Shown piece after piece: positions 31,698-39,217 of a stretch of 64,000 bases of DNA (positions are counted from its first letter, which is position 1; the number at the start of each line of letters is the position of its first letter). The stretch is from Permianibacter aggregans (GTDB taxonomy: Bacteria > Pseudomonadota > Gammaproteobacteria > Enterobacterales > Permianibacteraceae). A model generated the notes under the pieces. The model saw only the letters and a program-made list of their open reading frames with translations. It did not search any database and was not told the origin of the DNA. The stretch covers positions 3,286,001-3,350,000 of the forward strand of contig NZ_CP037953.1 in assembly GCF_009756665.1 (NCBI RefSeq), given 5' to 3'. The position numbers and the translations under genes were made by a program.

Positions 31698-32573
31698 TTA
31701 CCGCAATGGCAAAAACACTTCCGTTACGGCCTGATGCTCGGGCACATCCGGGAAAAATTTCAGGCGCTGGAAGAACAGCGGAAAATCGAGCGGCGACTCG
31801 TCACTCGCTGGCAGCCACTGTTGGTAAAGATAGCGCACAATGGGCGCCAGGCCCTGATCATGACCGATATGTCTGACCACGGCGCAGCGACAAGCCGGAA
31901 TGGTTTTGTTGACGATGCCCTGATCATTGGCGGCTAACGATTGTTGAACAGCAGCGCCGAGATCGAAGCGATAGTCTTCCGGTGCGGTGACGGCTGGGTC
32001 GTCATAGATCAAATTGAATGTGGCGCTTCGTGACGGCGGTAAGCGATTGGCGCGCCGCCAGGCGATGAATTGCTGAATGCTTTTGCCGAGTTGTTCTGGT
32101 GGGCCGCGGTGTTCCAGTACGGCCAGTTGCGTTTCCGGAAAATCGCGGATTTCCACTTGATAGGTTGCTTGATTGTTGGCGCTATCGTTCATCATCTGTT
32201 CCCTTGTCTGTTGCAGTTGCCGCATGACGTCGTGCCACTGCTGCCAATCTGGCTCGCGGCGAAACATCGTTGGCGCCTGACCAAACAACCGCCGGAACGT
32301 GCGGGCAAAGGATTCAGCGTTTTGATAACCGGCATCGGCGGAAACTTCACCGATGGAAAGGCTATCGCGATAGGCCAGTTGAAACGAGGCGCGCTGCAGG
32401 CGCAGCAAGCGGATGTACTGAAATACACCAATACCGTAGCAGGCGGAAAACTGCCGCTGAAAATGATACGGCGACAGTGCCGCTACGGCGCTCAACGTGG
32501 CAATCGACAATTCTTCATCAAGGTGCTGCTCAATATGGCGCAATACCTTGCTGAATCGCTCAATACTTTGCAC
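31698..32573 (-). CDS. AraC-family regulator with GyrI-like domain
   Basis: A 291-residue regulator in the Rob/SoxS-MarA type layout. The N-terminal double helix-turn-helix AraC domain (about 8-105) includes LSPYHFQRQF and GYQNAESFARTFRRLFGQAP. The C-terminal GyrI-like small-molecule-binding domain (about 135-290) includes YQVEIRDFPETQLAVLEHRG and, near its end, LFFQRLKFFPDVPEHQAVTEVFLPL. Such proteins usually sense hydrophobic or cationic drugs. It lies upstream of the GFA gene and may control it or itself; no operator is evident. Confidence 0.92.
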   Translation of the reverse strand: MQSIERFSKVLRHIEQHLDEELSIATLSAVAALSPYHFQRQFSACYGIGVFQYIRLLRLQRASFQLAYRDSLSIGEVSADAGYQNAESFARTFRRLFGQAPTMFRREPDWQQWHDVMRQLQQTREQMMNDSANNQATYQVEIRDFPETQLAVLEHRGPPEQLGKSIQQFIAWRRANRLPPSRSATFNLIYDDPAVTAPEDYRFDLGAAVQQSLAANDQGIVNKTIPACRCAVVRHIGHDQGLAPIVRYLYQQWLPASDESPLDFPLFFQRLKFFPDVPEHQAVTEVFLPLR

Positions 32574-33085: not shown

Positions 33086-34708
33086 CTATTGATCTTTTAC
33101 TGGTTTGCGCATCGCTTTGACGACGCCGCGCTGGGTTTTGTTTTCCAGCCGTTTTTTCTGTGAGGCGGCGGTTGGCTTGGTGCGTCGGCGCTTTTTCGGC
33201 ACCACGCTGGCGCGTGCGATCAGTTCTTGCAGGCGCTTGACCGCCTCTTCACGGTTTTGCGGTTGGCTGCGCTGACTTTGCGCTTTGATCACGATGACGC
33301 CATCTTTGCTGATGCGATCATCCGGCATTTGCTTCAGCCGTTGTTTGACAGCATCGGATAGCGATGAAGCATTGATATCGAAACGCAAATGCACCGCGCT
33401 CGCGACTTTGTTGACGTTCTGGCCACCGGCGCCTTGCGAACGCACCGCTTGCCATTCGATATCGCGTTCGTCGATACTCGGTAACGGCAGTCTCTGTTTA
33501 GTGGGTTTGTTGCTGGTGCGCGCCGGTTTGGCGGCCGGTTGCGCCGCCGGTGCGGGTTGCACCGGTTTTTCCAGTGAAGGTTTTAGTTCCGGCACGGGTA
33601 GCACCGGCAGTTTTTGTTTGGTCAGTTTCTCGATCGCGGTCAGTAAACCCTTTTCATCGCTGGATACCAGCGATAGCGCTTCACCTTCACTACCTGCGCG
33701 CCCAGTGCGGCCAATGCGGTGCACGTAATCTTCGGCAACCATCGGTAGCTCGTAGTTGATGACATGCGGCAGCGCTTCAATGTCGAGACCGCGTGCAGCG
33801 ATGTCAGTCGCGACCATGACACGAATGGCGCCGGATTTAAAATCAGCTAAAGCTTTGGTGCGTGCGCCCTGACTTTTGTTGCCGTGAATCGCGGCGGCAG
33901 TGATGCCATCTTTCTGCAGCTTTTCCGACAGGCGATTGGCGACGTGTTTCATTTGTACGAACACCAGCACCTGCGACCAATTGTTGTCGCGAATCAGTTG
34001 GCTGAGCAGTGCGATTTTTTTCGGCTTGTCGATCAGGTAAATCGATTGCTTGACGGTGCTGGCCGTGGCATTGCGCGGGCTGACATCAATTGACACCGGT
34101 TTGTTTAGCAAGCCATGCGCCAGTTTGCGAATGTCGTCGGAAAAGGTTGCCGAGAACAACAGGTTTTGCCGCTGTTTTGGCAACAGCGCCAGAATTTTTT
34201 TGATGTCGTGGATAAAACCCATATCGAGCATGCGGTCGGCTTCGTCGAGCACCAGCATTTCCACTTGGTTGAATTTGATTGCGCGCTGTTGGTGCAGATC
34301 GAGCAAACGTCCCGGTGTCGCGACCAGTAAATCAATACCGCGACGCAAGGCCATCATTTGCGGATTGATGCTGACGCCACCAAAAACCGCCGCATAGCGA
34401 AGCGGTAAATTCCGGCCGTAGGTTTTTGCGCTTTCTGCCACCTGGGCGGCGAGCTCACGTGTTGGCGTTAATACCAGGGCGCGTACTGAATTGGGTTTGG
34501 TGCTGGCCCCTTCGCTCAAGCGCTGCAGTATCGGCAGTGTGAAGCCGGCGGTTTTGCCGGTGCCGGTTTGCGCGGCAGCCATGACATCGCGGCCTTGCAA
34601 TACGGCCGGAATGGCTTGTTGTTGAATCGGCGTCGGGGTTTCATAGCCTTCGGCATGCAAGGCTTGGAGCAGGGCAGGGAGTAAACCTAAATCGGAAAAT
34701 GCGGGCAT
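33086..34708 (-). CDS. DEAD-box RNA helicase (RhlE-like) fused to an ArfB domain
   Basis: A 540-residue protein. Residues 1-365 form an RhlE-type DEAD-box helicase: Q motif near 27-33 (PTPIQQQ), Walker A AQTGTGKT (46-53), PTREL (82-86), DEAD (155-158), SAT (186-188), [10 protein letters not shown] (330-339). A Pro/Ala-rich linker (about 368-405) follows. Residues about 410-540 match ArfB/YaeJ: the catalytic loop [10 protein letters not shown] with GGQ at 428-430, [23 protein letters not shown], and a basic tail (505-537, [20 protein letters not shown]) of the kind that enters the mRNA channel of stalled ribosomes. ArfB releases peptides from ribosomes lacking a stop codon. Both halves look intact and are in one frame with no stop between them. 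Rho-like linker length argues for two working domains. Confidence 0.93.
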
Positions 34709-34813
34709 CAGGGAGACAACATCGTGAAGGCAGGGCGATACGCCCAGCGGGTATTTAAGGCGGCATTATCCCTGAATTGGCGCGGTTTAGCAGAAATAAA
34801 GCCGCGTAGCCGC

Positions 34814-34960
34814 TAGAAGCCATCTCAAAAATGCCTGGGAGCTCGGCGATCTGCGCGAATGCGGTGCTCGGAATCCTCATTTACGACTTGTAAACTCCGG
34901 TTCCTGCGCTCCTATTCACGCACCTCGCCATCGCCCAGACTATTTTTAAGATGGCTTCTA
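34814..34960. repeat. 147-bp inverted-repeat (MITE-like) element
   Basis: The left end TAGAAGCCATCTCAAAAAT (34814-34832) is inverted at the right as ATTTTTAAGATGGCTTCTA (34942-34960): 18 of 19 bases match, and the match continues weakly inward with CCTGGG/CCCAGA. The interior has no gene. The bounding bases are TA at each end, which would fit a TA target duplication as in IS630/Tc1-type insertions, but only two bases are available to judge. The right end forms the stop codon of the next gene. Confidence 0.8.
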
Positions 34961-35479
34961 AAAGCCCTGTTTCTGCAACTGTCTGACTCGGGCTTTGACG
35001 GAGGCCGGTTCGTCGGCCAGGGCCATGTTCAGAAACTGATCGGCATCGGCACGGTATTCCGGGTACTGCCGGGCCAGCCAATAAAACGCGTGATAAGCCC
35101 AGGCCCGGACGAAGGTATTCGGATGGGTCAAATGACGACGCAACGCGAACTCAACAGACGATTTTTCGGCTTTGCCAATGGGCAGGTATTCGGCGCTTTG
35201 CAACAGGTGCAGCAAGGCTTGCCAGTCGTCAACGGTGGGTAAGCATTGGTGAATGCTTTTGATGTTCGCTGCGCTCAACGAACCGCCATCACTCAGCCAT
35301 TGTTTCAGCAGGTAGCTGGCACCGCGTTGCAGTTCGGCATCCTTCAGCATCGATAACGACCATTCCGGGAACTCGTCGAACTCCCGGAATTGTTGGTAAA
35401 TCGTTTTGATTGCGCTGGCTGATTTGCCATCCCATTCCAGAATCGCATTCTTTAGCGCTGAGTGAGTGGTCGGTTCCAT
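34958..35479 (-). CDS. Helical-repeat protein of unknown function, cut by a repeat
   Basis: A 173-residue soluble protein made of paired amphipathic helices, for example LSMLKDAELQRGASYLLKQW and SSVEFALRRHLTHPNTFVRA, in the style of HEAT/DNA-glycosylase-like AlkD helical repeats. No catalytic motif is recognised. The stop TAG is formed by the terminal base of the 147-bp inverted-repeat element, so the original protein may have been longer. Start MEPTTHSALKNAILEW has no strong ribosome-binding site. Confidence 0.7.
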   Translation of the reverse strand: MEPTTHSALKNAILEWDGKSASAIKTIYQQFREFDEFPEWSLSMLKDAELQRGASYLLKQWLSDGGSLSAANIKSIHQCLPTVDDWQALLHLLQSAEYLPIGKAEKSSVEFALRRHLTHPNTFVRAWAYHAFYWLARQYPEYRADADQFLNMALADEPASVKARVRQLQKQGF

Positions 35480-37098: not shown

Positions 37099-37119
37099 TT
37101 TTTGTACGACGTACAAAAA
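37099..37119. promoter_or_regulatory. TetR-type operator
   Basis: A perfect palindrome with 9-bp arms TTTTTGTAC and GTACAAAAA around GAC, centred 37 bases before the TetR start codon. Probably autoregulatory for the TetR-P450 pair. Confidence 0.82.
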
Positions 37120-37145
37120 TGGTCGCCGTATGGTATTTTGCTCGC

Positions 37146-37844
37146 ATGACAATCCAGCCCCCAAAACGTCGTCAACGCAAGCGTGAACGCACGGCCTCAC
37201 ATTTGAGTGCAACCGCCTTCAAGCTTTTTGAAGCCCATGGCTATGACGCGGTCTCGATGGAGCAAATCGCCGACGAAGCGGACGTGGCGAAAGCGACGCT
37301 TTATAACCACTTCCCGGTGAAAGAAGCGCTGTTGGCGCATCGCTTCCGTGAGGACATAGCTGCCGGTATGACGGAGCTGGCGACGGCGCTCGCGGCACAT
37401 AAGAGTTTTGATCAGCGCATGCGCTATCTGCTGCGCGAGTCAGCCGCCTGGCACAGCGAGCGCAGAGCCTATATGCCGCATTACCTGCGGTTTTTGACCA
37501 GTCAAGCCAGCTATGGTGAAACCCCGACCAATCATGCGCTGCGCGATCAGCGGTTCGATACCGATACCAGGCAGATTTTGACGCTGATGATTCAGGCCGG
37601 TCAGATGGCGGGAGAAATCGATACTCGCCAAACCGCCGAACAGATTGCCTGGAGTTTTGAGTACCTGCTGTTCGGTGCCGTTTCGGCCTGGCTATGTGAC
37701 CCCAACACCGATTTGACCACACGATTTCTCGCGGCATTTGATTTGCTGATGCACGGCATCTCCAGCGCTCACCCTGCAAAAACAACAGCGAACACGAAGG
37801 CGCAAACCACCACGGCTCGATCACGATCCTCAGGAGTAAAGTAA
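37146..37844 (+). CDS. TetR-family regulator, paired with P450
   Basis: A 232-residue TetR protein. The N-terminal basic stretch is followed by the helix-turn-helix LFEAHGYDAVSMEQIADEAD and VAKATLYNHFPVKEAL, and then an all-helical ligand domain. The start at 37146 (MTIQPPKRRQRK) is preferred over the ATG at 37119, which lies in the operator. Its stop overlaps the P450 start by one base, so the two are co-translated. The C-terminal tail is Thr/Ala-rich and probably disordered. Confidence 0.9.
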   Translation: MTIQPPKRRQRKRERTASHLSATAFKLFEAHGYDAVSMEQIADEADVAKATLYNHFPVKEALLAHRFREDIAAGMTELATALAAHKSFDQRMRYLLRESAAWHSERRAYMPHYLRFLTSQASYGETPTNHALRDQRFDTDTRQILTLMIQAGQMAGEIDTRQTAEQIAWSFEYLLFGAVSAWLCDPNTDLTTRFLAAFDLLMHGISSAHPAKTTANTKAQTTTARSRSSGVK

Positions 37845-39217
37845 TGGCGATTACAACCAGCATTGAACAGGTGCCGAGCAGGAAAATTTCTTTGGGCTTG
37901 TCACTACTCCGGCACATTCAACACGATCCACTGGGCGCCGCCAAACAACTTCAACAGCAATATGGCGATGTCGCCAAACTGAATATTCTTTTTCGTCGAA
38001 TTTATTATTTCTTCAGCCCGGAAGCGGCTCGTCAGATCCTGGTCGATCATCAGTCCGATTTCGTCCGTGAATCGCGTCAACTTAAAGTTTTCGCCTCGTT
38101 TCAGGGCAAGAATGTGCTGACCACTGAGGGGGCAGATTGGGATCGTCAACGGCGCATTCTGACACCTGGTTTTTCGCCGAAGCGTGTTGCGGGTTATATG
38201 GATCTGATGAACGCCGCCATTCACGACAGCGTTAGCGCAGAACTGCCCGTCGAGCCAGGAAAAACGGCGGTTGTTGATGCGGATTTCCTGACCACGCGTG
38301 TCACGATGGACGTCATTCTGCGCACGTTGTTTTCGTATGCGACGACACAAGCGGAGGCGGCCAAGGTTTCTATCGCGATCCGGGCGCTAAGCCGACAAAG
38401 TATGCGCGAATTGTTTTGGCCGATTATTCCACCGAAGTGGCTACCGTACCCAGGGCGTGCCGCCAAGCTGGAGCAACTGAAAATCATTCATACGTTGATT
38501 GATGAGCATATCCAGGCGCGGACCAGTACGAACACTGATAGCAAACAGGATGTGCTCAGCATGTTGTTGGCGGCGCGCGATGATCAACCGGGCGCGGGTA
38601 ACGCGTCGCTCAGTGCGCAGGAAATTCATGATAATTGCTTCGTGTTGTTCGCGGCGGGGTTCGATACCGCGTCGTCGGCGATGAGTTGGTGGATAGGCCT
38701 GATGGCAACGCATCCTGGCATCGTTGAGCAATTGCGCCAAGAGATAACGGCTGCCAACACGACAGCATTGGAAAGCATCGCTCGCTTACCACTTTTAAAC
38801 GCCACTATTAAGGAGGCGATGCGTTTATACCCGCCATCCACGGCGCTATTTACTCGCGTTGCGCAAAAGGACGTGGTGATCGGTGATACGCCGGTCGCCA
38901 AAAACACCCTGGTAGTGATTCCGATTTGGAATTTGCATCATGATGCGCGTTCGTTTGCGGAGCCCAATGTGTTTCGTCCCGAACGCTTTCTGCCTGATGC
39001 CCCAGCCATTCCTCGCGGTGCTTACCTGCCTTTTGGCGCCGGCCCACATTTCTGCCTCGGCCAGCATTTCGCCAGTATTGAAATGGCATTGATTGCCGCT
39101 CATCTGATTCAGCATTTCGATTTTGCTCTGGCAGAAGGTGAAACGTTGCCAGAACCCGTTGTGGATTTGGTGCTTAAGCCAAAATCGGGGTTACGGGTGC
39201 GGGTTACCCGACGTTAA
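37844..39217 (+). CDS. Cytochrome P450
   Basis: A 457-residue P450. I-helix AGFDTASSAMSWW, K-helix EAMR (ExxR), the meander segment PNVFRPERFLP, and the heme loop FGAGPHFCLGQ with ligand C404. The loop and overall size resemble the CYP4/CYP102-like bacterial enzymes acting on fatty acids, alkanes or steroids, but substrate cannot be assigned. There is no fused reductase; electrons could come from an Fpr-type system such as the one at 42653. Its ATG overlaps the TetR stop. Confidence 0.93.
   Translation: MAITTSIEQVPSRKISLGLSLLRHIQHDPLGAAKQLQQQYGDVAKLNILFRRIYYFFSPEAARQILVDHQSDFVRESRQLKVFASFQGKNVLTTEGADWDRQRRILTPGFSPKRVAGYMDLMNAAIHDSVSAELPVEPGKTAVVDADFLTTRVTMDVILRTLFSYATTQAEAAKVSIAIRALSRQSMRELFWPIIPPKWLPYPGRAAKLEQLKIIHTLIDEHIQARTSTNTDSKQDVLSMLLAARDDQPGAGNASLSAQEIHDNCFVLFAAGFDTASSAMSWWIGLMATHPGIVEQLRQEITAANTTALESIARLPLLNATIKEAMRLYPPSTALFTRVAQKDVVIGDTPVAKNTLVVIPIWNLHHDARSFAEPNVFRPERFLPDAPAIPRGAYLPFGAGPHFCLGQHFASIEMALIAAHLIQHFDFALAEGETLPEPVVDLVLKPKSGLRVRVTRR

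Follow-up and report, generated by a model that had tools for sequence, protein, structure and literature searches.

In a 64,000-nucleotide stretch of the Permianibacter aggregans genome (RefSeq assembly GCF_009756665.1, contig NZ_CP037953.1, positions 3,286,001 to 3,350,000 of the forward strand; in the following "the window"), a single gene encodes an RhlE-type DEAD-box helicase joined to a complete ArfB ribosome-rescue domain. The relatives examined keep RhlE and ArfB as two genes. An earlier note on this DNA had proposed one continuous helicase-ArfB frame without giving its strand; the frame indeed runs uninterrupted through 540 codons plus stop, on the minus strand. Judged from its sequence, we read the fusion as real and lineage-specific. 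Moreover, we consider it somewhat probable that RhlE-ArfB is a single two-domain protein born by fusion within this lineage, in which ArfB still works and the helicase sets its dosage and location. This reading is built on the two halves, the lack of separate copies and the empty arfB site, from which we infer the order of events.

The frame starts with ATG (coordinates of all features are compiled in Table 1), the plus strand over the same interval is interrupted by many stops, and the other two minus-strand frames contain 16 and 15 stops. At codon positions 1/2/3 the helicase part has a guanine plus cytosine (GC) content of 0.62/0.41/0.62, and the ArfB part one of 0.64/0.41/0.61. The linker, recognized as Pro/Ala-rich already in the earlier note, shows 0.71/0.58/0.61, the first and second positions being raised because its Pro/Ala make-up requires this, and third-position GC remains at 0.61-0.62 throughout all three parts.

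An intact RhlE-type helicase had been claimed for the N-terminal part, which is borne out by Pfam (DEAD at residues 26-195, 7.9e-53; Helicase_C at 231-339, 9.1e-31) and by the motifs AQTGTGKT, DEAD, SAT (186-188) and HRIGRTGR (330-337), found in order, those named in the earlier note being where it had placed them. The best NCBIfam helicase model is RhlE (NF007882) with 605.6 bits over residues 3-382, followed by RhlE2 (581.8), RhlE1 (574) and, as the next non-RhlE model, CshA (408.7 bits); the curated equivalog cut-off of 743 for NF007882 is missed by the fusion and likewise by the separate RhlE of the same genus (681.9). In comparison with RhlE, the fusion has the same helicase core with its DEAD-box motifs but is devoid of the basic disordered C-terminal extension, in place of which the linker and ArfB stand. 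In the aligned RhlE relatives this tail is basic, Gly/Arg/Lys-rich and variable, and the fusion point falls within it. On these sequence features the half is of the RhlE type with an intact DEAD-box core, and unwinding is predicted.

The C-terminal part matches Pfam RF-1 (PF00472) at residues 411-534 (1.9e-24) and the ArfB equivalog NF006718 at residues 411-538 with 174.2 bits, compared with an NCBIfam cut-off of 100. Its alignment to E. coli YaeJ 10-136 is gapless and the spacing from GGQ to the tail is identical, so that the earlier claim of an intact ArfB domain with GGQ and basic tail holds. The YaeJ residues K53, R105, R118, L119, K122, K129, and R132 correspond to 455K, 507R, 520R, 521L, 524K, 531K, and 534R of the fusion, all seven being kept. 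Mutation of R118, L119, K122, K129, R132, and K53 in YaeJ was reported to lower activity and R105A to lower ribosome binding (Kogure et al., PMC3950681), with an activity loss of 80% quoted for R105A in a review (PMC8012679). Furthermore, 38 columns are conserved in 90% or more of the remaining ArfB rows (viral row L172 left out in addition to the rows dropped for the tree described below, identical sequences kept), and the fusion keeps 35 of them; in the other three, E is changed to D, A to S (common to the same-genus genome described below) and P to S. Full domain, GGQ, GGQ-to-tail spacing and the mapped K/R/L residues are thus as in ArfB/YaeJ (NF006718 / PF00472). In contrast, ArfB is described as a free-standing protein of some 140 aa (PMC6514570, PMC7641280) and here forms the C-terminal part of a 540-aa helicase protein; its N-terminus, reported as a dimer contact on longer mRNA (PMC7641280), is here tied to the linker, and such an N-terminal fusion could alter the dimer mode. 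Considering its sequence, the ArfB half probably still rescues ribosomes.

The predicted structure contributes little to this picture. Blocks of the helicase were modeled confidently, with a predicted local distance difference test score (pLDDT) of 66-96, and residues 377-439 with a pLDDT below 50, as for a disordered linker. The blocks of the ArfB part, where the alignment is shallow with only two other rows, reached 40-68 and thus a low confidence, though with a plausible order of strands and helices.

The genome is a single contig of 4,266,648 bases, rated 100% complete and 0.04% contaminated. The earlier note had asked whether a separate arfB or rhlE exists, and neither was found in the genome searches. 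A search for the RF-1 domain returned four matches, namely the fusion, PrfH and two proteins taken as RF1 and RF2 by their score and size; a separate arfB was not among them. Other DEAD-box matches comprised RhlB and DbpA (both over cut-off) and one CsdA/SrmB-like protein, all at 41-45% identity, as well as one further, weak match (24% identity, 2.9e-5). In these searches, no ArfB and no clear RhlE other than the fusion turned up in the genome. Regarding other rescue systems, transfer-messenger RNA (tmRNA) is present over the gathering score, and ArfA gave no match at E<=10 in a search that matched 8 of 14 control genomes, one of them over cut-off. PrfH scores 289.6 bits (NCBIfam cut-off 166.65) and represents a second GGQ rescue factor of this genome besides the fusion, probably one linked to repair. 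Its gene lies directly beside one that we take to be RtcB-like (G000:C1:99477-101341; L042 4478-6342). The pairing of PrfH with RtcB has been described (PMC6514570) and resembles the fusion in tying a GGQ release factor to an RNA-handling enzyme, but it does so by gene neighborhood rather than by fusion, and with a ligase instead of a helicase as partner.

To search for such fusions elsewhere and to map their taxonomic spread had been proposed in the earlier note; the spread turned out not to be wide, with one single genome among the samples searched. The genome surveys are samples that overlap with each other, and both phylum samples (from the searches with the ArfB half and the whole protein) appear to be the same 398 genomes. 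Among the fusion genome and its relatives, with all matches listed, 102 out of 148 genomes carry ArfB over cut-off, in one of them fused. There, the open frame with ArfB has a length of 559; it reaches at most 274 in the other 101 genomes and is therefore too short to accommodate a helicase core in front. In the order sample, 390 of 394 genomes match the whole protein at E<=1e-20. Among the matches listed, both halves are covered in the fusion genome only (1153 bits), the next match reaching 604 bits over residues 3-402, and no other match extends past residue 437. Similarly, 226 of 398 phylum genomes match at E<=1e-120, with both halves covered in the fusion genome only, among the matches listed. 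Two rhlE matches of the phylum that read through a stop to residues 440 and 467 were rejected, the downstream sequence being without GGQ and not ArfB. With the ArfB half as query, 187 of 369 genomes of the class and 275 of 398 of the phylum gave matches at E<=1e-20, the longest other arfB frames among the matches listed measuring 463 (class) and 384 (phylum). Fifteen long arfB frames among these matches were inspected (all 13, apart from the fusion, with at least 300 aa before arfB, and two with 257 and 249 aa): for 10 of them Pfam gives RF-1 only, and the remaining L156, L157, L185, L186, and L187 look by eye like off-frame sequence before an ordinary arfB start.

A motif scan of 150 loci for DEAD together with an ArfB-type GGQ in one frame returned the fusion only. 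A looser GGQ scan of 197 sources (196 loci and the window) returned the fusion (three copies of the same gene) and four frames (L050, L070, L111, L120), which were discarded as chance Gly-rich matches in helicase tails. Within a collection of 84,980 species, the best 80 of 461 relatives match at most to residue 438. The plasmid and phage searches gave 460 and 61 matching records, respectively, none of which covers 80% of the query. Viral contigs queried with the whole protein gave no relative; queried with the ArfB half, they yielded eight loci, in all of which the GGQ frame is devoid of a DEAD-type motif. Two of the IMG/VR contigs classed as viral (L172, L173) encode ArfB-like GGQ proteins with 50% and 39% identity to the fused ArfB, which could represent host carry-over or phage-borne rescue factors. 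The impression in the earlier note that this fusion had not been described agrees with the literature covered by our full-text search, which included few subscription papers and no bioRxiv preprints and gave no description of such a fusion. In the release-factor survey of Burroughs and Aravind, ArfB appears as a standalone domain and the main text mentions neither helicase nor DEAD (PMC6514570).

The separate genes are retained in close relatives. In a genome of the same genus (G001), rhlE (71% identity over residues 3-402) and arfB (65% over 413-536) lie ~1.23 Mb apart on one contig, and in a genome of the same family (G002) they are found on different contigs. The arfB of G001 overlaps a small upstream gene and is flanked by two genes that, from their sequence, presumably encode an MBL-fold protein and an SDR. 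In the fusion genome the block is syntenic on both sides and the MBL-fold and SDR genes nearly abut (8693/8696 in L171). This empty site is also without the small arfB-overlapping neighbor (L171 8693-8696 compared with L035 7336-8977). At this site arfB may have been lost from the fusion genome or inserted in G001; G002 carries arfB between other genes than G001. An ArfB tree was built from 51 rows, after removal of RF1, RF2, both further copies of the fusion, five RF-like rows and the ArfB-like row L173 of viral origin, the second copy of the G002 arfB and identical sequences. Therein the fusion joins G002 weakly (94/81, not starred), so that a vertical as well as a lateral origin of the ArfB half is possible. 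A neighborhood of rhlE common to G001 was not supported, as only weak matches of 31% identity occur beyond rhlE and its overlapping frames. For the neighboring protein at window positions 34958-35479, a search run without positive control gave no match in either of the two family genomes. An adjacency of rhlE and arfB preceding the fusion was likewise rejected: by motif, no ArfB-like frame lies near rhlE (up to 4 kb on each side) in the best 80 of 461 relatives, and the two genes are unlinked in G001.

Based on these data we propose that arfB was brought in frame behind the 3' part of rhlE, where it would have taken the place of the usual basic disordered tail. The fusion probably makes one bifunctional protein. 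ArfB is C-terminal and its tail end therefore stays free; as in E. coli, this tail would enter the empty mRNA channel and GGQ would cut peptidyl-tRNA, as a backup to tmRNA. The helicase core, attached through some 40 to 60 flexible linker residues, would set the amount of ArfB via rhlE expression and keep it on RNA and ribosomes. ATP-driven help in rescue would be possible but not required.

Several observations weigh against this proposal. Four well-conserved tail positions of YaeJ differ in the fusion (R109K, R112A, R117K, K125R); the corresponding YaeJ residues were mutated, yet stand outside those listed as lowering activity in the relevant part of the paper (PMC3950681). The end branch of the ArfB half is long, with 0.55 compared with 0.19 (G002) and 0.21 (G001) in the tree, which could reflect relaxed constraint. 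Relative-rate counts against G001 with five outgroups are mixed for ArfB, being even for two (chi2 0.3, 0.0) and in excess for three (6.1, 8.0, 4.8). A mildly higher rate is seen for the helicase half as well (chi2 3.3-4.6). The subfamily of the CsdA/SrmB-like protein in the same genome is not sharply set, as it scores 441.3 bits for CsdA, 439.6 for SrmB and 421.2 for RhlE, all under cut-off. Within the sampled searches the fusion occurs in one genome only, and therefore no conservation of the fused form shows selection. Its own ATG is without a Shine-Dalgarno (SD)-like sequence (0.0 kcal/mol). Lastly, the uninterrupted frame proves little should the fusion be young, since a neutral simulation with 0.05 changes per site left 48% of sequences without a stop.

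A more active role of the helicase has a small though appreciable probability in our view. Here, ArfB would dock and the tethered DEAD-box core would pull or unwind downstream mRNA from the entry channel, or help ArfB to leave, such that ribosomes with longer overhangs are rescued. There is no sign of such coupling in the sequence, the helicase core is without visible feature beyond ordinary RhlE, and DEAD-box proteins act locally on short duplexes, which speaks against this role. Another helicase to be considered, HrpA, differs from the fusion in being of the DEAH/RHA type and in not being known to carry a peptidyl-tRNA hydrolase domain. As an RNA helicase in ribosome rescue it is nonetheless comparable, being cited as rescuing collided ribosomes in E. 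coli (PMC13159725), and RhlE itself has been reported on 70S ribosomes and tied to 50S assembly (PMC10783127). For E. coli ArfB, a fast first binding at any mRNA length, a slow engagement while mRNA leaves the entry channel and a slow departure were reported (PMC7427801); ArfB dissociation limits turnover on short mRNA (PMC7427801, PMC7641280), and N-terminal residues mediate the contact between a first and a second ArfB when the mRNA is longer (PMC7641280). Exit of mRNA from the channel and dissociation of ArfB are accordingly slow steps that a tethered helicase could speed. The idea of the earlier note that the helicase might unwind structured mRNA, strip mRNA or ribosome, or mark decay-linked rescue is compatible with these published kinetics (PMC7427801). 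That RhlE-ArfB is an ATP-driven rescue factor, whose helicase would clear the entry channel of ribosomes stalled mid-message so that ArfB could engage without prior mRNA cleavage, we regard as doubtful.

It is rather improbable that the ArfB domain has lost its rescue function and now serves the helicase as a basic tail for binding RNA or ribosomes. The basic Gly/Arg/Lys-rich tail of the aligned RhlE proteins is indeed replaced by linker and ArfB, and the long end branch of the ArfB half fits this explanation, but a mere binding tail would not require GGQ, the seven mapped residues and 35 of 38 highly conserved columns to be kept.

Still less probable is the production of two proteins. The helicase would then arise through proteolysis in the linker or through early termination, and ArfB through cleavage or, as considered in the earlier note, from an internal start. 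The linker is disordered in the model and could thus be cleaved. GTG codons lie near the junction at 369, 372, 383, and 422, among which codon 383 has the strongest anti-SD pairing; this weak SD-like sequence (-3.3 kcal/mol) is stronger than that of the gene's ATG. On the other hand, 7 of 35 in-frame start-type codons (codon 383 counted) are equal or stronger, and no ATG lies between codons 323 and 461. A missed stop or frameshift joining two ordinary genes was rejected as unlikely on the same grounds: with no ATG in this region and poor SD sequences at the junction GTGs, an overlooked stop would by itself leave no ordinary arfB gene behind it. A sequencing or assembly error, named in the earlier note as what could undo the fusion and in line with its presence in one genome only, is hardly credible given the single complete contig with its low contamination, the one frame with equal third-position GC across the junction, the lack of an ordinary start codon for ArfB after a missed stop, and an arfB site that is empty, as expected if arfB is elsewhere.

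Besides the fusion gene, some further features of the window were recorded. A mini-frame (ATG TTG TCT CCC TGA; 34708-34722, minus strand) overlaps with its end the ATG of the fusion (TGATG), possibly indicating translational coupling or chance. At 37119-39217, on the plus strand and thus opposite to the fusion, a TetR-type regulator gene overlaps a cytochrome P450 gene (PF00440, PF00067), and at 31698-32573 an AraC-type regulator with a GyrI-like small-molecule binding domain is encoded.

Table 1. Location of the rhlE-arfB fusion gene and its parts within the window, with the evidence for each assignment.
Feature	Position	Strand	Evidence
rhlE-arfB fusion gene	33086..34708	-	540 codons plus stop; translation, Pfam, NCBIfam
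RhlE-type DEAD-box helicase core, residues 1-370	33599..34708	-	Pfam DEAD + Helicase_C; 71% identity to same-genus RhlE over 3-402; model pLDDT 66-96
Walker A AQTGTGKT, residues 46-53	34550..34573	-	translation
DEAD motif, residues 155-158	34235..34246	-	translation
Pro/Ala-rich linker, residues 371-408	33485..33598	-	translation; model pLDDT <50 for residues 377-439
Complete ArfB domain, residues 409-540	33089..33484	-	NCBIfam NF006718 174.2 bits; aligns with E. coli YaeJ 10-136 without gaps
GGQ catalytic motif, residues 428-430	33419..33427	-	translation, alignment
Basic ArfB linker and C-terminal tail, residues 505-537, including tail positions that E. coli YaeJ is reported to require	33098..33196	-	alignment

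With its natural tie between ArfB and a helicase, the fusion would allow one to ask directly if the slow engagement or departure of ArfB is relieved by helicase activity, and if bacteria couple the rescue of ribosomes to the handling of mRNA. If the fusion protein is active, ArfB tolerates a large N-terminal partner when its tail end is free, and a gene of RNA metabolism can come to control a rescue factor that usually serves as backup. Should ATP-driven rescue be true, the targets of ArfB would widen from truncated to intact mRNA.
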